Source: Saccoglossus kowalevskii | Taxonomy: Eukaryota > Hemichordata > Enteropneusta > Harrimaniidae | DNA: 23,833 nucleotides | NCBI RefSeq assembly: GCF_000003605.2 | Contig: NW_003155237.1 | Span: 357,833-381,665 of the forward strand | Direction: 5' to 3' | In this document: positions 1,157-23,833 of the stretch, one piece after another | Layout of the letters: every line of letters begins with the position of its first letter | How positions within the stretch are numbered: the stretch's first letter is position 1 | Made by a program: the position numbers and the translations under genes | Notes under the pieces: generated by a model | What the model saw: the letters and a program-made list of their open reading frames with translations, nothing else | What the model was told of the DNA's origin: nothing | The model's database searches: none

Positions 1157-5569
<4,413 letters not shown>

Positions 5570-6960: not shown

Positions 6961-9477
6961 ATCAAACCGGCATACTAGTAATACCCTTTCGCATCATGGC
7001 ACTATACGACAGCGAACCACGCATGTTTGTTAGTGCAAATATTATTTTTTCAAAGTATATGTAATTAAAAACCTAAAATGAAAAAGCTTTTAATGTTCAT
7101 CACATCAATAGAAAGCCCGAGACGAATTGCTGAATCTCATAACCTGTAACCCCAAGACCCGTCAGCGGATACACAATCCTGTGAGCAGCGCTCTGCCTGG
7201 CTGACTGACTCGTCATGAGAAACTTGAATATTGTGAAGCTCACAATGCCCATTCAGCGACCAGTAGATATTGGATGATCTCCTCAGGTACACTCACTTTT
7301 TAAAATTTTACGATATCATCTGTGTTTTTTTTCCCAACTGCGAGGTACTCGCCATGACACTATCACCATTATGAACTTGAAGTTAAAACAAATTTAAAGA
7401 TGTATTATAGTTCATGATATTTGCTGAAACTACTGAAAACGTGAGCTCTGAGTTGAAAGAAAACGTTTTCCCGCGTTAATGAATCAAAGTATTCAAAACT
7501 ACCACAAAACTTAAAGAATTACATTGTATATGACTTTACATATTTTTGATAAAAACCCGGGTAACAATAATGTAATATTATTTTAGATGTTATTCAAAAA
7601 AATACGTTTTACAGGTAATAAAGAAAATTATATAACTTCGAAATCATTACATTGTTGTCTTTTGTGTGTGCATAAACGTAAATGTGTACTTTTGTTGTCT
7701 ACTTAAATTCTAGCAAGTCACAGAATGATTTGGTTTTTGTCTCATTAGTCCATTAGATTTTTTGGGGGGGTCTGGAGGAAATTGATGAACTAACACGACA
7801 ACAAACAACAACAGCAAGTCATTTTGTGTGAAGGGTGATCAAATTGTATTTCTCTTTTTACCATCAATCGTAAACAACAGTACGATTTGATGTATATGCA
7901 GAATAACAATACATCTCCGTTCTTATGGCTTGGTGCATATTTTGCATTTACATATTTTGTCAATAGAAACGCCATAAAATACCAGACATATATATATCGA
8001 AGGTTGAATGGATTTAGAAATGATGTCATAGATATTTACTACTATTATATCGCGTATTTCACGGTAACACATAATTATCCTGCACGGATTATGCGGTTTT
8101 ATTATTTTAAATTCCCGAAATTATCAAACGTATTTCTGTTTGGTAACGTAAATTATCGTTTTTCGAAATACAAATTCACTACAAGTATGCTATATCTTAA
8201 TCTATTAAATCCTCAATATAATTGGCTTAACGAGAAGAAGGAAGGACTGTTATAGAATCTATTTATCCAACCAAAGACACCAGTGTCTTTGATCTAACTA
8301 ACTTCACTTTCACTCTTAGACTATTTGAAAGTTGAAGTACTAGTATATTGTTAACATATACATTCTTTGACAACTTCCCGAGGTAGAGCGATATTCGTTC
8401 ATTTCTGGCATTATGTAAACAATATTTTTGTGTGCACATTTCTCTTATTAAAACAGATTCCGCAGTCTTATATAAATATATTGATCAACTAACGTCACTA
8501 CATAATAGAACGAACTGAATAATAGCAATCCATCGCCATGTATAAAACCCACATTTTTTCAAATACAGCATGTTGATTGCTTGTTATGATTTGATCGGTT
8601 TAGTACTACTATTATGTAACAACATCAGAACAAACTTTGCACACGTTTCCTTACATGGAGTGACATGCTTGAACGAATAATAATGGTTTATTGCTATTGT
8701 ATATGTACGTTTTATATTCGTATTTGTTTATCGCTCGACTCAAAAAGCGTTATACGAGGGCAACGACCCTTATATTTTGAAGTACAGTAGAGTCTACCAC
8801 TGACAGATGGTACTTAGAAACTGTTTGGAATTTGGCCAAGTATCAATGCATTTCATCAATCAGTTGCTAAGCAACAACCACGTAATAGTGTGATTGTGTA
8901 ATCTACGGACAAAGATAAAACAAACCGAATAAAGTACAGTGGCACAGAATATTACATAATATGATGAACATGCGTCATAAACTAAACAAAACATGAATCG
9001 AAAATAACACTGAAGTTACTAATCAAATAATAAAGTATAGTACTGCATTATGTTGTTTTTGGTTGAAAAGCAATACAGGTATTGAAAGATGTTTAGTCCT
9101 TAATTTCACCTGCGTTATCAGTTTTTTGTTTAGTGGGATTTTTTGGATTTGTCAATGAATGAAAATAAAAATGAATCAAATGAAAATATCTTTGGTATAC
9201 ATACAAACAAAATGGTGTGTCACCCTCTGTATATACTATTTTGAAAAGCCAATAACTTATATTAATAAAAAAATGGTTTAACCAAGACTGTTTTTCACTA
9301 CATAAAGACCTTAAAAACATCTCAAAATTATATCAACGATTCCCAAATGATCCTATCATTCTCGATAAACTTTATACAAAAAAATACTTTTTGATAAAAA
9401 CTATTAAGAAATTCCACACAATCCTGGAAAATAATGCGAGTCTTGGGTAAACCACAAATTCTAAATTGCCAGGTGGT
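6961..9477. other. Intergenic AT-rich sequence
   Basis: No gene or clear repeat was recognised. A 122-codon open frame at 7887-8255 is dominated by Y, F, N and K codons, lacks any recognisable motif and is best read as chance in AT-rich DNA. The last part, from about 9250, may be the eroded 5' region of the LINE that follows. Confidence 0.4.
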
Positions 9478-10822
9478 CACATCGAACCAGATGAATGGTT
9501 TAAATATTTCAAGACTTGTTAAATAATAAAAAGACTTCGACAGAAAAAAGCATGAATAATTATGTTGAAACTGGAAAACAAGAAGAGAATAGTCAGAGCA
9601 TTGACATTTTTATCGGTATTATCGAAAAATTAGAAAAAATGGCAATTAGTAATCTAAAAAAAAATGAAATGTTCAAAATTGGTGGAGATTACCTCACAAA
9701 TGCATTACAGTCTTTAATATTGTCTTCAATTCTACTAAATATCCCGGAATCATAGAACACAAATTTAATGATTCTAATTCATAAACCTGGTTCAAAATCA
9801 AGCCCATCCAACTACAGGCATATTGCTATCTCAATATGCATAGGAAAACTATTCGATAGCATTTTAAATAATAAGCTGGTAACTTACCTTGACAATAAAT
9901 ATTCCTAGGAAACAACAGTTTGGTTTCAGAAAAATAATTCCGAACAATAAATAACCTCTTTATCTTAAAAACAGGCATTAATAAGTACTTTTACCACGGT
10001 AAAGAAACAAACAACGAACTCGAACCACGTTTATGCATGTTTATTCAAGGTTTGGCATAATGGTTTTTATAACTTCTAAAATACAGTGCCACAAAGAAAA
10101 TGTTCAATATAAGTAAAACATGTATCGCGACGTCAAATTAACAAATTAACAAATGACATTTCTATCGATATCCGATGTCATACAAGGCTGCAATTTAAGT
10201 CCATATCTATTCAACGACCTGACGGAGTTGACAGTTGTGATTCACCTCATTCAAAAATTAGCATTTAACTGTAAATACTGAAAACACTAAAATCATGAAT
10301 TTTCTTCCATGAAGGCGGCGAAATATGCACCGAAGACAATGTAATTGCCTCAGCATCAATATAACTCTAAATGAAAAAATCAAGGAATGACTAAAATCAC
10401 CGAAGAAAAAGGCCTTAAGGCAATGAACCTTTTTAAAAAAAATATAGTTTAGATGATTACTTGATAATGAACAACATTTTGTGATGTCTTGCACTGTCTA
10501 TGCCCAACATTCTATTTACGGAAGCAAGGAAAATAATTACACATTTCAATAAATTACAGCAGGACGACCAATTAAGATTTAACTTGAGCAATAAATCCCT
10601 GTCAATTCCTTTATGCCGATATTTGCGAATCTGTTTTGAATCTAGACAGCAACATCTTCTTCCTTGGATTTTCTTGGATTTTTATTTTTAATTGTTTTTT
10701 TGTTTTTGTTTTTTTCTCTGTGTATGTTTTTTTACTTTGTTATGTCACTTTTTTGTCTTGTATTTTGTGCATTGTATCCATTATTGTCCAATGGATGTTA
10801 AGTGAACAATCAATCAATCAAC
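9478..10822 (+). mobile_element. Decayed LINE (non-LTR retrotransposon) copy A: reverse-transcriptase remnant and 3' end
   Basis: Broken reading frames on the plus strand follow the order of a LINE ORF2. Pre-RT text IEPDEWFKYFK is at ~9484, NEMFKIGGDYLTNALQ at ~9662, and SNYRHIAISICIGKLFDSIL then NNKLVTYLDN at ~9808-9895. QQFGFRK is at ~9911 and ILKTGINKYFYHGKE at ~9965. Later pieces resemble the 'CxLSPxLFNxxxNDL' region near 10180. Several stops and frameshifts separate them, so it is inactive. The 3' part is T-rich (10683-10740) and ends in a (CAAT)n tail at 10807-10822, a typical LINE 3' terminus. The catalytic YADD box is not seen. Clade (CR1/L2/Jockey-like) is not determined. Confidence 0.85.
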
Positions 10823-16766: not shown

Positions 16767-16857
16767 ATGTGTTCAATAGACTTACCAACAGTTACGAAGT
16801 CTGGCGTGTGCTTAGCCAGTGGTACCTTCTTTGGATACGTGCTGCAGAAATCTTCTG
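16767..16857 (+). CDS. YeeE/YedE (TsuA-like, Sulf_transp) membrane protein, first coding exon
   Basis: This is the start of a seven-exon gene for a multi-pass membrane protein of the YeeE/YedE family (Pfam Sulf_transp), whose bacterial member TsuA imports thiosulfate across the inner membrane. The exon encodes residues 1-30 plus one base: a short N-terminus, then a hydrophobic glycine-rich helix (GVCLASGTFFGYVLQ, residues 13-27) matching the family's first 'GFxLQ(R/K)' helix. The start ATG has A at -3 (TATAACATG) and is the first ATG of the open stretch. The donor is TCTTCTG|GTAAGA at 16857/16858, phase 1. In bacterial relatives the segment after LQR carries a conserved Cys (RFC); here the joined sequence reads QKSSVYTP, with Tyr32 at that place. 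A further upstream exon cannot be excluded. Which membrane it sits in cannot be read from the sequence. Confidence 0.82.
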
Positions 16858-17299
16858 GTAAGAATAAGTCATGTCCGCTTTAAAGTTACCATGCGATCGT
16901 CGCAAGGGTCACGCAAACAACATTTACGTGCGGTCGCAAGGAAATGCACGTCCCTCATCTGAAGTCATAACATATTCTCTCATCAGTGGTCCATTGATGA
17001 TAAAAAAGCACAACTTATAAACTTGCAATCATTCTTTGAAATTATCGTATGAATTATTGCTGTTCTGTAACACGAAAACTTGCGTTTGCACTGAATATAG
17101 GTCATCTCGTTGGTCATCGTGGGTCACGCAAATCCATGTGTAACTTTGTCCTTTATCGACGATAACAAACATATGTATATAGCATTGCTTTGATTCTCCT
17201 TTATAATATCCTTACACTCACAAAAGTTCGACGCTTATTTTGTTTATGCCCAACTATATAATAATTATAAAATATTTTTTTCTCGTTCAATATTTTCAG
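16858..17299 (+). other. Intron 1 of the TsuA-like gene
   Basis: GT-AG, 442 bp, phase 1. It has a pyrimidine-rich acceptor tract (TTTTTTTCTCGTTCAATATTTTCAG, 17275-17299). No repeat was recognised. Confidence 0.85.
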
Positions 17300-17383
17300 T
17301 TTACACCCCAGATGTGATCAGAAATGCGGCGTTGATGCAGAGCGGCACGCCTCTGAAGATGTGGCTAGCCGCTAGTACTGCAA
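17300..17383 (+). CDS. TsuA-like membrane protein, exon 2
   Basis: The acceptor TATTTTCAG|TTTACACC at 17299/17300 joins exon 1 in phase 1, giving FGYVLQKSS-VYTPDVIRNA. The donor is GCAA|GTAAGT at 17383/17384, phase 1. It encodes residues 31-58: VYTPDVIRNAALMQSG, then PLKMWLAASTA. In this family the first helix is followed by a polar '..IR.Q' segment and a second hydrophobic helix beginning '.LKM.LAA'. I58-style inference aside, both parts are present and in the right order. The 84-nt exon is GC-richer than its AT-rich intron flanks, which supports coding. Confidence 0.88.
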
Positions 17384-17982
17384 GTAAGTGCTTGTTTAGA
17401 AACCACATCAACTAAACATTGTCTCCAACATTCTGGTGTAAAAACTCTCTATATTCATTCTTCGGGTTTCTCATTTGATTTGCCTTGATTCTAACTTTCC
17501 AAGTTTCCATTAATGATTATATTAGGTATTAAAAACTAAAAATGTGATTGAGGTACTCGTGTAATATTTTTTCCTCTATTTTTTTATGAAATTTCTCAAA
17601 ATGGAATTTGTAACAAAATTATATTATATATACATAAATTTTCATTTTTTGATCAACATAAAGGTAGCTCAGCTGTTATTTATAAAGGATAACTATCTCG
17701 ACTGAAAATCTTGATAATAATACACTGTCTATAGTGTATTGTACTTTGATAACTATGTGTGTTTAATAATTAAGTGCATAATAATAATAATAATGCATAT
17801 ATTAATGTAGCATCTAAATCCTTAACAACATATTACTCACAGGTGCTGCACAATATTACCTCGGTTATTTGCCATCTCCACTCCCTGGGAAGAATATAAA
17901 TGCGGCTGCCCCACACTGGTGCTTTAATTTTGTGGTCTGACAAGATATATAACCAAATTATTATGTCATCATTTGTGGTCAT

Positions 17983-18870
17983 TATTAGTCCCCGTTCGGA
18001 CGCAGTCCAAAAACGGGGACTTATGTTTTGACCTCCGTGTGTCCGTGTGTTCGTGCATCCGTCCGTGCATGCGTGCCTGTATCTTAGAAATGCCTGGACC
18101 AATCACACATCACAAACTTCACACATACATCATACATGATATTATACATATGCACGTCAATTTGTTTCACAATCTGATTCAAGATGGCCGAATGGCTGCC
18201 ATTTTTGTTCTAAAAATCATCAAAATCAAGCATTTCTCGGTTGTGTACAGATGGATTTTGTTCAAACTTGGTATATATATGTTGGACATTATAGGACCTT
18301 GATGCACATCATTTTGTTTTTCAGATAAGATTCAAAATGGCCGATTGGTGGCCATTTTGTTTTAATGAATGTGGTTCTAGTGCCATATCTCTGACTTGCT
18401 GTGACTGATTATGTTCAAATTTTAAATATTCATCATACATCATGTCATAGATATACAGATATATTGGTTTGACAATCCTATTAAAAATGGCCGAATGGTG
18501 GCCATTTTTGTGCTAAAAAATCATCAAAATCAAGCATTTCTCGGCTGTTCACAGATGGATTTTGTTCAAACTTGGTATACTAGTATATATGTTGGACATT
18601 ATAGGACCTTGATGCACATCATTTTGTTTTTCAGATAAGATTCAAAATGGCTGACTGGTGGCCATTTTGTTTTAATGAATGTGGTTCTAGTGCCATATCT
18701 CTGACTTGCTGTGACTGATTATGTTCAAATTTTATATATTCATTATACATGTATTCAAAATGGATGATTTTGTTTTAATTATTGCTGTTCCAGAGCAATA
18801 TCTCTTAATACTCATTTGACGATCAGATACAAATGCCGATCATTTTAATGTTAAACAATCATCATATTCC
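17983..18870 (+). repeat. Interspersed element with ~304-bp tandem monomers and a terminal hairpin
   Basis: After a hairpin start (TTATTAGTCCCCG), a monomer of about 304 bp is repeated. CAAAATCAAGCATTTCTCGG occurs at 18221 and 18525, and CATTATAGGACCTTGATGCA at ~18287 and ~18595. CATATCTCTGACTTGCTGTG lies at ~18383 and ~18696. Each monomer holds two 'ATGGCCGAxTGGTGGCCATTTT' palindrome-like cores. A third, decayed monomer continues to about 18870 (TTCAAAATGGATGATTTTG, CAATATCTCTTAA). It is non-coding. The class is unknown; the tandem internal monomers would fit a non-autonomous Helitron- or MITE-like element. Confidence 0.8.
17989..18020. repeat. Nested hairpin at the head of the tandem element
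   Basis: GTCCCCG (17989-17995) pairs perfectly with CGGGGAC (18014-18020), and an inner GGAC/GTCC pair encloses GCA. The 32-nt nested stem-loop would be very stable. Confidence 0.85.
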
Positions 18871-20074
18871 TGACATTATATATTCCAGCTTATTACTATA
18901 AACGAAACTATATATCTTATATTCAATAACTAACGGGACTGTGCCATGCATGGCTTGTTTCATCAAATATTTATAATTGTTAAACCATAGCTACTTAAAA
19001 CCACCCTTATTATTGCTTGCAGTTGTATTTTTAAATACTGTATTTGCTCTATTATAAGCACATGTGCTTACAGTAAATATAAATGACAAGGACAGGTCTA
19101 TGGTCAAAATAAGACATATTTCAATGATTTTGCATGCAATAAATACAATACGTTTCATGTGAAATGACGCTGTGCTTCTAATATAGTAAATACTATATTC
19201 CTTAGTTGTACGTCATGCCTCAAATACCTTCTGCACACAGGAGTTCTTTCTAAGCTTTCTTTAATTGTTAATTAGATGGAATTAAGCACATACTGATACT
19301 AAGTGATGTAGATAAGATCCAGTACCCAGTTACAATGCCCTGCTATATACTCACAATGACTGTGTTCAAATATGTGTATTCCTGACAAGCCAATAGTGTT
19401 AACAATACAATGATTGAACTCTAACACGCTAATCTTCCAGTATCAGTATTGTATACATTACTGATTAACAAATCTCGACATGCCACAGAATTTATATTCA
19501 TATTTCTCACATTTACATCCATTCTGATTAAAACAAGATCCTAGTTTTGGCTTTATTTTTTTCTGCATGTTTTTAATTATTTATTTTTATCATACACTTT
19601 TACTTTATAGGAATTTATTATTTATTTGCTATACATGTAATTTTTATAAGTTTTAATAATCGCAAAACCCAACAAGGCAATAGTTAAGGTAATGTAATAA
19701 TAAAAATAATAAAAATATATAGTAAAATAAAAATAAATAAAATTCACGCCATACATAACATCAGATTTTAATCAAATTGGTTTTCATCAATAATTATTAA
19801 TTTACAAAAGTTGTTCCTGTGCATTTAATTAAGTGGTATGGTAATTAACGATGTGTGCAATTCAAATAAATAATTTATACAATTGAAGTGTCTTTGGTAT
19901 CATGATTAATGTCAACATCTTATTTGTGTATCACTAAAGCAAAATTGAACTTGGTTTCTTTTATTTCAGTATAAGTTAATGTTGAACCCTGATCTACAAA
20001 TTTCTTTTTGCTAGATGATGACAGTGATCTATTCTGACCTATGTCAAGCTCTGCACGTTTGATCATGTGACCAG

Positions 20075-20490
20075 TTATTAGTGCCCACACAAAAACTGTG
20101 GTTTAACCTTTGTGCTTTCTTATCCACTTGTAACTGGCACATGCTTGGACCGATCAAACTGAATGTTCACATTAATGGTGGCTGAATACCAGCTAATTTA
20201 ATACCAAAAATACGTCAATAACATCCCTTTTTGCCATTCCAGAATTCAGATTTTGTTTTAACTTTGTATATGCACTGTACACCATGGTTCCTTGATGCAA
20301 GTCGTGTTATTCTTAAGATAGGTCTCTTTGGTGCCATGACCAACTGGAATGCAGTTCCCAATCCATATTTCTGACTTGCCTGAACCGAAGTTCAGACATA
20401 ATTTTATGCACATACATCAGCAGTTGTGTCATGATTTTCATATCTGTTTTAAAATGGATTTAGTTCAAATCTGTTGTATGAAAATAAAAA
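20075..20490 (+). repeat. Diverged second copy of the 17983-18870 element family
   Basis: Landmarks recur in the same order as in the first copy: TTATTAGTGCCC at the start, CTTGGACCGATCA, GATTTTGTTTTAACTTTGTA, TTCCTTGATGCAAGTCGTGTT and CATATTTCTGACTTGCCTGA. The terminal hairpin is lost. The copy is single-monomer and much more eroded. Confidence 0.6.
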
Positions 20491-21382
20491 TGCCTGAGCT
20501 GTTAATTTAACACATTTTGAGAGACTGTATTTTATCTTCAGGAGACGTACAATGCATGTATAATTACACATACACTCAAATATACTTTTACATTAAAAAC
20601 GATAGTTGTTTGAACAGGCATAAAGACAAGAGACTTCTATAAAGATTTATTAACACCGCTGTTTTAACCAGTGTGAATAATGATTTAGGCTAGCACTGAA
20701 TGTGCCTCTTGCACATGTCAATCCAGTAAAAGAACTGGTGTCAAATCAGAAACAAAATACATGTAGTAACTTTAGACACTCTCGCTGTCAAGGAAACAGT
20801 AGAACAGAACTTTTTAAAAAAAATATATCCACCTTTCTAGAGTGCAATATTGACCCAACTCCACCCCACCCCCAATAAAATTACAGAAAAGTTAAAAGGC
20901 AGCTTTTGGTAAAAAGTTACCTTAATTGGAGGTCAAATTTCTTGGCGAAGGAAAACAGATATAAAAAACAAAAAAACAGCAACTTTGTGCCCACACTCAA
21001 ATTGAGTAGAATGAGTTATGTCCAAAGTTTTTATTCCAAGATACATTTAGCGCATTTAAAAATTGTCACACAGGGAATGTAATTTTATGACAACCATTTC
21101 TTATGTGTTACTGTAATCATTACATTTTGTCAGTTTATGCACTTATATCTACATGTGAATTGTACTAAACATTGAGATGAACTACTGGTAAAAACCACAC
21201 CAGGATTTTGCATTGTTTATCTTGCTCTCAGGGGTATCTCAAATAGATTTATTTATTTAGTTACTTTGCTATTCTGTTTTCATCGTAGATGTTCACAAGT
21301 TTGAGCGGCTTGGAAACATCTCTTGTATTATGATATTATTCTCATTTTAGATTATTTATTAGATTTACATTTAATATTACAG

Positions 21383-21531
21383 ACATGGCGGCCCTGGCGA
21401 TACTTCCTGCAGTTGGTGGGGCAAATATAGTGAAAGAAGCCAAGGCAGATCACTGTGCTAAAGGAGAAAGTCTACCATGCAGTGTTGTGGGTGGATTCAT
21501 TCATGGTGCTGGCATAGTTATATGTGGGGCT
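21383..21531 (+). CDS. TsuA-like membrane protein, exon 3
   Basis: The acceptor TAATATTACAG|ACATGGCG at 21382/21383 continues phase 1 from exon 2 across a ~4-kb repeat-filled intron, creating Asn59. The donor is GGGGCT|GTTAGT at 21531/21532, phase 0. It encodes residues 59-108: a hydrophobic helix (MAALAILPAVGG), a loop with C83 and C91, then VVGGFIHGAGIVICGA. That last segment is the first half of the family signature 'GxxxGxGxxxxGxCP', which lines the substrate path in bacterial TsuA; the signature Cys is the first residue of the next exon. An additional cysteine, C106, sits three residues before it. Confidence 0.93.
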
Positions 21532-21886
21532 GTTAGTATTCACTATCAAACTATATTTTTTTTGATAACATAAACCACTGGCCCTGACATGAATCGAGCT
21601 AAATTCATCTTAGATGTTGTTGGAAATTCATTTTTGCAACAAAATAATATGTAATACCATATACATAAATGAGAGAGGTGTGTGTCTATGAAAGTTACCA
21701 TGATCTAATGCCAATCTAAATCATATTTCAATGTTCAAGCAAACCATAAATACACTAATCTAAAGTTATAAATAGGATCCCAAATTTGAGCCAGTGTTTA
21801 AGTGACTTATAAAATTCCTTTTTTGAACCATTGACAGAAACAAAAGAAAATAGAGATATATTAATAAATCAAATTACATTTTCCAG
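21532..21886 (+). other. Intron 3 of the TsuA-like gene
   Basis: GT-AG, 355 bp, phase 0, AT-rich. No other feature was seen. Confidence 0.88.
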
Positions 21887-22041
21887 TGCCCTGCAACCAT
21901 CCTTGTACAACTTGGTACCGGTACTGAAAACTCTCTTTATACGCTTGGTGGCTATCTAGCAGGGGGTCTCCTATATGGCTTCTTAGATGAAAAGATTGCT
22001 TCTATAAGGAGTGAAACCAAGATGCTCAAACGAAAATGCAC
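21887..22041 (+). CDS. TsuA-like membrane protein, exon 4 (CPxTxLVQLGTG signature)
   Basis: The acceptor ACATTTTCCAG|TGCCCT at 21886/21887 is phase 0, and the donor TGCAC|GTAAGT at 22041/22042 is phase 2. It encodes residues 109-159. It opens with CPATILVQLGTGTENSLYTL; joined to exon 3 this reads GAGIVICGA-CPATILVQLG, the hallmark of the YeeE/YedE family. C109 corresponds to the strictly conserved substrate-handling Cys of bacterial TsuA (Cys91 there, from memory). A Gly-rich helix (GGYLAGGLLYGFLDE, 129-143) and a charged linker (KIASIRSETKMLKRKC) follow. The clear family match and both strong splice sites make this one of the best-supported exons in the window. Confidence 0.95.
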
Positions 22042-22222
22042 GTAAGTCAGTAATAGCAAGTGTTTCAAAATGAGTAATCTACATATTAGGCGTGTCCAGT
22101 TGTTTTTGATAAAAGTAGCTGCAAAGGTTTATAAAAACAAAAAAGTCAGTGATTATTGTGGTCATTTGCAAGTAATTGACATGTGTATGATGAAGAATTT
22201 TGTGCTTTTTTCACTGGGAATA

Positions 22223-22381
22223 TACTGTGAAAAACTTTATTTCCACTTAGAATTTATTTTCGCTGAAGTGATGATTCAGTGAATATGAAATATATTTTTT
22301 CCTATATTTTACTTTCAACTCAGTGAAAAAACGTCTTTTCAGCAAAAATAAATTCAGGCTAAAAGAAAGTATTTTATAGTA
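22223..22381. mobile_element. MITE, copy 2, just upstream of permease exon 5
   Basis: Terminal sequences TACTGTGAAAAACTTTATTT and AAAGAAAGTATTTTATAGTA are diverged inverted repeats. The interior (TTTATTTTCGCTGAAGTGATGATTCAGTGAATATGA, split over ~35 bp, and TTTTTTCCTATATTTTAC) follows copy 1 in order. It ends 24 bp before the exon 5 coding start at 22406, so it occupies much of the short intron 4. Confidence 0.75.
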
Positions 22382-22405
22382 TTTACATGTATTCCTTAAT
22401 TACAG

Positions 22406-22545
22406 TTTGGATGACTTTGTAGGATGTAGTTATGCACTACTGGCCATTCCATTATGTGCAGGTATCATGACATTTTTGAAATACTCCTCCGACTATCTCC
22501 CAGCTGACTTGAAAACTAGCTGCAATTGTGGATCCATAAAACCAG
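22406..22545 (+). CDS. TsuA-like membrane protein, exon 5
   Basis: The acceptor CCTTAATTACAG|TTTGGATG at 22405/22406 restores phase 2 (Thr160), and the donor AACCAG|GTATTC at 22545/22546 is phase 1. It encodes residues 161-206: LDDFVGCSYALLAIPLCAGI (one membrane helix with C167 and C177), then a polar, probably non-membrane loop KYSSDYLPADLKTSCNCGSI with a CxC pair (C199, C201). A MITE ends only 24 bp before this exon, and the 29-bp minisatellite fills most of the next intron. The segment corresponds to the region between the two Sulf_transp half-repeats of the family. Confidence 0.92.
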
Positions 22546-22623
22546 GTATTCAAAGTAGTACGGTATATTGAATTTCTAATACTGTGTATAAACCATGCAA
22601 CTAGCCATTCGCACAGCACGTCG

Positions 22624-23058
22624 TGCCAACTGAGCCATTCTACACTACGTTGTGCCGACTGAGCCAGTCTACACTATGTTGTGCCGACTGAGCCAGTCTA
22701 CACTATGTTGTGCCGACTGAGCCAGTCTACACTATGTTGTGCCGACTGAGCCAGTCTACACTACGTCATGCCGACTGAGCCAGTCTACACTATGTTGTGC
22801 CGACTGAGCCAGTCTACACTATGTTGTGCCGACTGAGCCAGTCTACACTATGTCATGCCGACTGAGCCAGTCCACACTACGTCATGCCGACTGAGCCAGT
22901 CCACACTACGTCATGCCGACTGAACCAGTCCACACTACGTCATGCCGACTGAGCCAGTCCACACTATGTCATGCCGACTGAGCCAGTCCACACTACGTCA
23001 TGCCGACTGAGCCAGTCCGCACTACGTCATGCCGACTGAGCCAGTCCACACTACGTCA
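22624..23058 (+). repeat. 29-bp minisatellite, 15 units, in intron 5 of the TsuA-like gene
   Basis: Units start TGCCGACTGAGCCAGTCYAC and end with ACTAYGTYR, at exact 29-bp spacing from 22624 to 23030. A decayed unit follows at 23059 and a decayed half-unit precedes at about 22597. Variation is ordered. Units 1-8 have TCTACAC and units 9-15 have TCCRCAC. The last bases are TTG in units 1-4, 6 and 7, and TCA in units 5 and 8-15. The array fills most of the 557-bp intron (22546-23102) and ends 44 bp before exon 6. Confidence 0.97.
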
Positions 23059-23102
23059 TGCCGATTGTGACACCTATTCATTGTTTACTCTTATTACCAT
23101 AG

Positions 23103-23263
23103 GTTTAGTCCTGGGTTTTGTCAATATCCCGATATTGCTGGCCGTCAGAAAGATGATTGGTTGCAGCAGTAGTTGCATCACTCTGGCATCTCAGATCGTT
23201 CCAAAGTCAGTATCTTCGAAGTATCTTGACGCACACAGGTCGGGCTTCAAAAAATGGTGGCAG
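23103..23263 (+). CDS. TsuA-like membrane protein, exon 6
   Basis: The acceptor TTATTACCATAG|GTTTAG at 23102/23103 is phase 1 (Gly207), and the donor GGCAG|GTATGT at 23263/23264 is phase 0. It encodes residues 207-260. GLVLGFVNIPILLAVRKMIG and then CSSSCITLASQIVP match the 'GLxxGxxxxPxxLxxxxxLGxSSS' segment that opens the second half of YeeE/YedE proteins. A basic amphipathic stretch (AHRSGFKKWWQ) follows. C227 and C231 are additional cysteines. The frame happens to stay open backwards into the minisatellite, but that part is intronic by the clear acceptor. Confidence 0.93.
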
Positions 23264-23744
23264 GTATGTTAACTTTGTATCTTTGAACCCGCAAAGAATT
23301 GTAAATATCATTGGTAAAAGTGTGTCATTGGCAATATGATTATTATTCATGATGATTATGGATTTTCAGTGTATTTTTAACTGTTGTGGTATTGAAATAA
23401 GTTTCCAGATAATTTGTTTAGGCAGTAAATGTCTTTGAGATTGATGGTTAATGTTGTAATTGTAAATTTTAGCAATTAACACATTTTTTACAGCGACCAT
23501 GTCCTATGGTTCTCCTTCAGTAAGATTATGTAATGGTGGCAAACCCCACACAGGTACAGCCTGTTGTCCAGAATTCATATTGTTATTGAATTTTCCAAAA
23601 CATTGTTATTTAATTTGTGGTATTTAAGTGAGACAATATTTTGAATTTGTTTTTCATGATAGTAGATGCTTGCTAAATTCATAAATGTGACATTTACATC
23701 TGGCAGTTATAGCACTTTTATGAATTTCATGTTTATTTCAACAG
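23264..23744 (+). other. Intron 6 of the TsuA-like gene
   Basis: GT-AG, 481 bp, phase 0. No repeat or gene was recognised. Confidence 0.88.
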
Positions 23745-23833
23745 GTTCTGTTCACAGCAGGGGCTGTAGGTGGTGCTTACATTGCAGCAAGAGGATCAGA
23801 CTCTTTAAACACAGTGACTGGAGTTTCCAAGCC
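23745..23833 (+). CDS. TsuA-like membrane protein, exon 7 (truncated by window end)
   Basis: The acceptor TTTATTTCAACAG|GTTCTG at 23744/23745, phase 0, continues directly from exon 6 (KKWWQ-VLFTAGAVGGAYIAAR). It encodes residues 261-289: a Gly/Ala-rich helix with GGAYIAA matching the family's 'GGxxGA' helix of the second repeat, then a loop DSLNTVTGVSK. The window stops inside the exon. The family's second Cys signature (GGCSxGxG in bacteria) should be encoded just downstream and cannot be checked here. Confidence 0.88.

Follow-up and report, generated by a model that had tools for sequence, protein, structure and literature searches.

Does the genome of the enteropneust Saccoglossus kowalevskii encode a membrane protein of the Sulf_transp (YeeE/YedE) family, and which bacterial transporters could serve as models for what it does? 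The question is raised by a stretch of 23,833 nucleotides from contig NW_003155237.1 (hereafter the window), in which an earlier note had proposed an intron-bearing animal member of this family, labelled it TsuA and excluded bacterial contamination as its source. An animal exposed to sulfide has to transport thiosulfate and sulfane sulfur, and with an animal gene of this family such transport can be tested directly. We know of no experimentally tested animal transporter of the family, and a literature search, with most subscription journals outside its scope, found no report of transport by an animal Sulf_transp member.

A chain of seven exons was rebuilt from the sequence on the + strand (16767-23833), the last exon being truncated where the window stops. 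The six introns are without exception GT-AG, and the phases keep a single frame open for 289 aa as far as the window reaches, which agrees with the seven exons, matching phases and six GT-AG introns of the earlier note. The frame upstream of the putative start ATG at 16767 is open to 16602. The predicted gene consists of the following parts, listed together with intron 2:

16767..16857, + strand: exon 1, with the putative start codon and the first hydrophobic segment
17300..17383, + strand: exon 2, phase 1 in and phase 1 out, containing Y32, aligned with C22 of StYeeE
17384..21382, + strand: intron 2, 4.0 kb, containing a 310-nt direct duplication
21383..21531, + strand: exon 3, with the GAGIVICGA segment at its end
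21887..22041, + strand: exon 4, starting with CPATILVQLG, whose first cysteine (C109) is aligned with C91 of StYeeE and the cysteine of the YedE2 GACPG motif
22406..22545, + strand: exon 5, a linker and the next hydrophobic segment
23103..23263, + strand: exon 6, where the second half begins, with a GCSSSC segment aligned with GISSSL of YedE1
23745..23833, + strand: exon 7, truncated by the window end; the C293 position would be encoded farther on

With its introns predicted from sequence, the transporter gene is a well-supported gene prediction. The duplication in intron 2 spans 18128-18750 with 90% matches, and intron 5 holds a minisatellite in which a 29-bp unit is repeated in tandem about 16 times (22603-23064, 94% matches) and which ends 38 bases before exon 6. 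Also within the + strand, an open segment that follows an AG from about 17844 is in frame with exon 2 and ends in a stop; it may be there by chance or serve as an alternative last exon. It was not taken into the chain as an additional or alternative exon, the Pfam stretch being collinear without it.

The profile search that the earlier note had named as a check on its proposal gave a significant match: Pfam Sulf_transp (PF04143) matches the 289-aa spliced protein with an E value of 1.5e-19 and 71.1 bits, above the curated cut-off of 27 bits. The match is a single collinear stretch that places aa 28-281 on profile positions 1-251 of 310; the last 59 profile positions fall outside the window, and this C-terminal gap is about what the window end removes. 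Because the splicing had been guided by eye, an unguided search, independent of the hand splicing, was run with five HMMs of bacterial and archaeal relatives against 824 six-frame stop-to-stop segments of at least 20 aa, the six best rows being considered for each model. Exon 4 came first for the YedE2 HMM (E 8.3e-5), followed by exon 3 (E 0.16), and exon 3 came first for both the TsuA N-half HMM (E 6.1e-4) and the whole-TsuA HMM (E 1.1e-3). Exon 6 was first for the YedE1 HMM, but with an E value of only 0.41; exon 7 was second for the TsuA C-half HMM (E 1.0), with an unrelated segment ahead of it, and exon 1 was sixth for the TsuA N-half HMM (E 2.3). Exons 2 and 5 were absent from the six best rows of all five HMMs. 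Shuffled sequences gave a further comparison. For the N half, none of 1000 shuffles reached the real score with either the YedE2 or the TsuA N-half model, the best shuffle scoring 10.7 bits for each against 46.5 and 48.5 bits, respectively; for the C half, none of 1000 did so with the YedE1 model (best 11.0) and one of 1000 with the TsuA C-half model.

The plain BLAST signal of the animal protein is low. Its best match in the PDB has an E value of 0.011, and tblastn against plasmids gave no match at E 0.01. When the central 89 aa were compared with plasmids at E values up to 10, all 13 matched records were annotated as YeeE/YedE, DUF6691 or DUF395 YeeE/YedE, each of these matches being weak (best E 0.1). 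No relative of the protein was found in the viral collection, and Rfam gave nothing at its gathering threshold.

The surrounding DNA shows that the host is an animal. Two exon pieces on the - strand each encode one of the two parts of a C4 zinc-finger DNA-binding domain:

4475-5059, - strand: first piece of the zinc-finger domain
969-1175, - strand: second piece of the zinc-finger domain

Joined, these pieces have estrogen-related receptor gamma (ERR gamma) as their closest relative in the PDB, and nuclear receptors are described as specific to metazoans (PMC7827873). The ERR-type gene and the transporter gene are divergent, with about 12 kb between the nearest coding pieces seen. From its six predicted GT-AG introns and the ERR-type neighbour, the transporter gene is a nuclear animal gene; bacterial contamination is ruled out by the same two features, so that this part of the earlier note holds with the added weight of the neighbouring gene. 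The Pfam match, the introns and the animal neighbour together uphold its central claim, that an animal gene with introns encodes a protein of the Sulf_transp (YeeE/YedE) family. An open stretch precedes the first piece of the ERR-type gene and may be its N-terminal region. Between the two genes, on the + strand (9256-9908), three open segments resemble, by eye, a decayed non-LTR reverse transcriptase, without Pfam support.

Membership of the family leaves the choice between TsuA, the two-protein YedE1E2 transporter and neither of them. Both NCBIfam TsuA models give scores below their cut-offs, NF052577 with 25.2 bits (cut-off 400) and NF041049 with 18.5 bits (cut-off 645); the window-end cut lowers these scores, though in our judgement by far less than the gap to the cut-offs. 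The scores with the NCBIfam model for the putative selenium transporter YedE (23.3 bits, cut-off 200) and with DUF6691 (PF20398; 18.3 bits, cut-off 27) are likewise below the cut-off. For a finer comparison, profiles were built from bacterial and archaeal rows: 84 for YedE2, 83 for YedE1 and ten for long TsuA-type forms. For YedE2 and YedE1, the rows were taken from the 80 loci most like YedE2 among 572 confirmed, with four plasmid pairs added. Of these 80 loci, 78 yielded a YedE1; one locus (L058) gave two YedE1 pieces that were left in, as was one YedE2 row that is a 19-aa fragment (L046; also among the tree rows). The TsuA-type rows comprise E. coli TsuA, a Paracoccus form retrieved with the animal sequence as query and eight picked among 40 of 56 plasmid records, and not all ten need be functional TsuA.

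Against these profiles, the first 155 aa of the animal protein fit TsuA and YedE2 about equally well (48.5 bits with the TsuA N-half profile, 46.5 bits with the YedE2 profile), whereas the second half scores 16.2 bits with the YedE1 profile and 6.1 bits with the TsuA C-half profile, a lean toward YedE1 carried by 16 bits over about 70 residues. Single-sequence comparison of the N half gave 30.6-32.9 bits for YedE2, 12.0 for E. coli TsuA and 28.4 for the Paracoccus long form; the claim that the N half is closer to YedE2 than to TsuA was dropped, since the profiles give an equal fit. Trees of each half were built with a random 14 of 80 YedE2 and 14 of 79 YedE1 rows and four plasmid rows of each. 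In both, the animal row lies outside the TsuA and YedE groups, on branches of 1.43 (N) and 4.17 (C) changes per column. Bootstrapping with 200 trees places it outside the YedE group firmly for the N half (100%) and weakly for the C half (60%). With a midpoint root, its neighbour is TsuA in the N-half tree and YedE1 in the C-half tree. Given such long branches and different midpoint-root neighbours in each half, no firm kinship with TsuA or YedE1E2 follows, and a clear assignment to either, which the trees do not back, was rejected. We read the animal protein, from these sequence comparisons, as a separate lineage of the Sulf_transp (YeeE/YedE) family. A single animal sequence does not allow descent from an old eukaryotic gene to be distinguished from a transfer.

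The proposed relay cysteines of the bacterial proteins separate the models further. In StYeeE, C293, C91 and C22 have been proposed to relay thiosulfate inward, with YeeD receiving it beside C22 (PMC11073785). The C91 column is a cysteine in all ten TsuA-type rows and is C109 in the animal protein, and the cysteine of the YedE2 GACPG motif, aligned with C109, is kept in 83 of 83 letters (84 rows, one being the 19-aa fragment). The C22 column is a cysteine in nine of the ten TsuA-type rows, one long form also being without it, and is Y32 in the animal protein; C293 is a cysteine in all ten long forms, its position in the animal gene lying beyond the window end, where a further break in the relay could lie. 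No cysteine column other than that of GACPG is shared by more than 30% of the 84 YedE2 rows, which thus have no C22-type cysteine. A YedE1 cysteine near the second-half match (82 of 83 letters) is not kept in the alignment of the animal protein. At a Kyte-Doolittle threshold of 1.2, four hydrophobic segments are counted in the animal protein and 8-11 in the ten prokaryotic forms, which are longer (330-420 aa); at a threshold of 0.8 the counts are eight and 10-13. The TsuA label of the earlier note is therefore not retained, the protein being far under the NCBIfam TsuA cut-offs, lacking the C22 relay cysteine and falling outside the TsuA group in trees with long branches.

The reading that we favour, and consider probable, is that of a separate lineage moving reduced sulfur species via a shortened cysteine relay, with the cargo taken by analogy from the bacterial relatives. 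The nuclear animal gene would encode a Sulf_transp (YeeE/YedE) membrane protein made of a single chain, in which a reduced sulfur species (thiosulfate or persulfide/zero-valent sulfur) might cross the membrane along buried cysteines, as in the bacterial YeeE proposal and the report on YedE1E2. With the cytoplasmic relay cysteine C22 gone, a TsuA-style hand-over to a TsuB/YeeD-like partner appears unlikely, and for that reason release to a small thiol, for example glutathione, would be the preferred exit, in place of a TusA-type partner. Physiologically, the protein may then take part in sulfide handling by moving sulfane sulfur or thiosulfate. YedE1E2 is reported to import zero-valent sulfur and to produce glutathione persulfide (GSSH), each subunit having one essential cysteine; in the same report the pair of YedE1 and YedE2 made uptake of zero-valent sulfur faster, which the single-chain bacterial YedE3, of the TsuA type, did not (PMC10812762). 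As the animal protein is single-chain like YedE3, the zero-valent sulfur version of our reading is disfavoured. It is conceivable, if doubtful, that a separate eukaryotic lineage carries YedE2-like and YedE1-like halves in one chain, has lost the relay cysteine on the cytoplasmic side and would let animals import sulfane sulfur straight to glutathione without a TusA-type partner. The missing third cysteine, of the C22 type, shows which bacterial models should be compared in tests.

Three other explanations compete with the shortened relay. A family member whose relay has decayed, so that it carries a different cargo or transports nothing (examples being a selenium species, some other anion or a structural function), would account for the long branches in the trees, the loss of one relay cysteine, the weaker hydrophobic segments and a selenium-transporter score close to that of TsuA; it sits poorly with the retention of C109 in a column so uniformly cysteine in the TsuA-type and YedE2 rows, and we regard it as unlikely. 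We find it about equally unlikely that the protein is a true TsuA, a thiosulfate importer handing its cargo to a TusA/YeeD-type partner as in bacteria. The tyrosine in place of C22, the distance below the NCBIfam cut-offs and a second half that barely fits, at a score that a shuffle can match, all speak against such an importer, even though the TsuA N-half profile fits the first half as well as any, the C91 equivalent is kept, the midpoint-rooted N-half tree sets the animal row beside the TsuA group, the single chain is the TsuA arrangement, and the single-chain YedE3 likewise gave no zero-valent sulfur uptake in the report cited above.

A pseudogene or a chance assembly of exons could underlie a chain predicted from DNA, in which exons 2 and 5 were not recovered independently and exons 1 and 7 only at E values of 2.3 and 1.0, and the open segment with its AG near 17844 shows that exon-like pieces do occur here. 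Six consistent junctions without a stop and a collinear 71-bit Pfam match make this explanation very improbable.

Set beside its known relatives, the animal protein shares with TsuA/YeeE (E. coli; Spirochaeta thermophila 6LEO; the YedE3 of PMC10812762) the presence of both halves in one chain, the C91 position and the fit of the N half, but differs from it in the tyrosine at C22, the poor fit of the second half, scores far under the cut-offs and a branch of its own. With the zero-valent sulfur transporter YedE1E2 (YedE2 being DUF6691, and the pair being related to PmpA/PmpB) it shares the absence of a C22-type cysteine, the GACP cysteine and a second half leaning toward YedE1; however, YedE1E2 consists of two small separate bacterial proteins, whereas the animal protein is one chain, E2-like then E1-like, and lies outside that group in the trees. 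Among eukaryotes, a host YeeE/YedE gene of the sponge Aplysina aerophoba is reported to be up by day, as is SQOR, which detoxifies sulfide (PMC12879404), and is likewise an animal host gene assigned to the Sulf_transp family; the fungal C1G7B3, listed as a YeeE/YedE family integral membrane protein (PMC12565617), is by name a eukaryotic member. An animal member was thus found, as the earlier note had proposed, but it is less surprising than it had seemed and not new as such, because eukaryotic YeeE-like proteins and the sponge host gene were already in print.

In bacteria, the E1 gene lies upstream of E2 in the four annotated plasmid pairs. No rhodanese, TauE/SafE or DsrE gene is shown at one of the four loci with a YedE1/YedE2 pair (L007). 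At the other three (L005, L006 and L008) rhodanese, TauE/SafE and DsrE genes are close by, neighbours that are in keeping with sulfane-sulfur handling.
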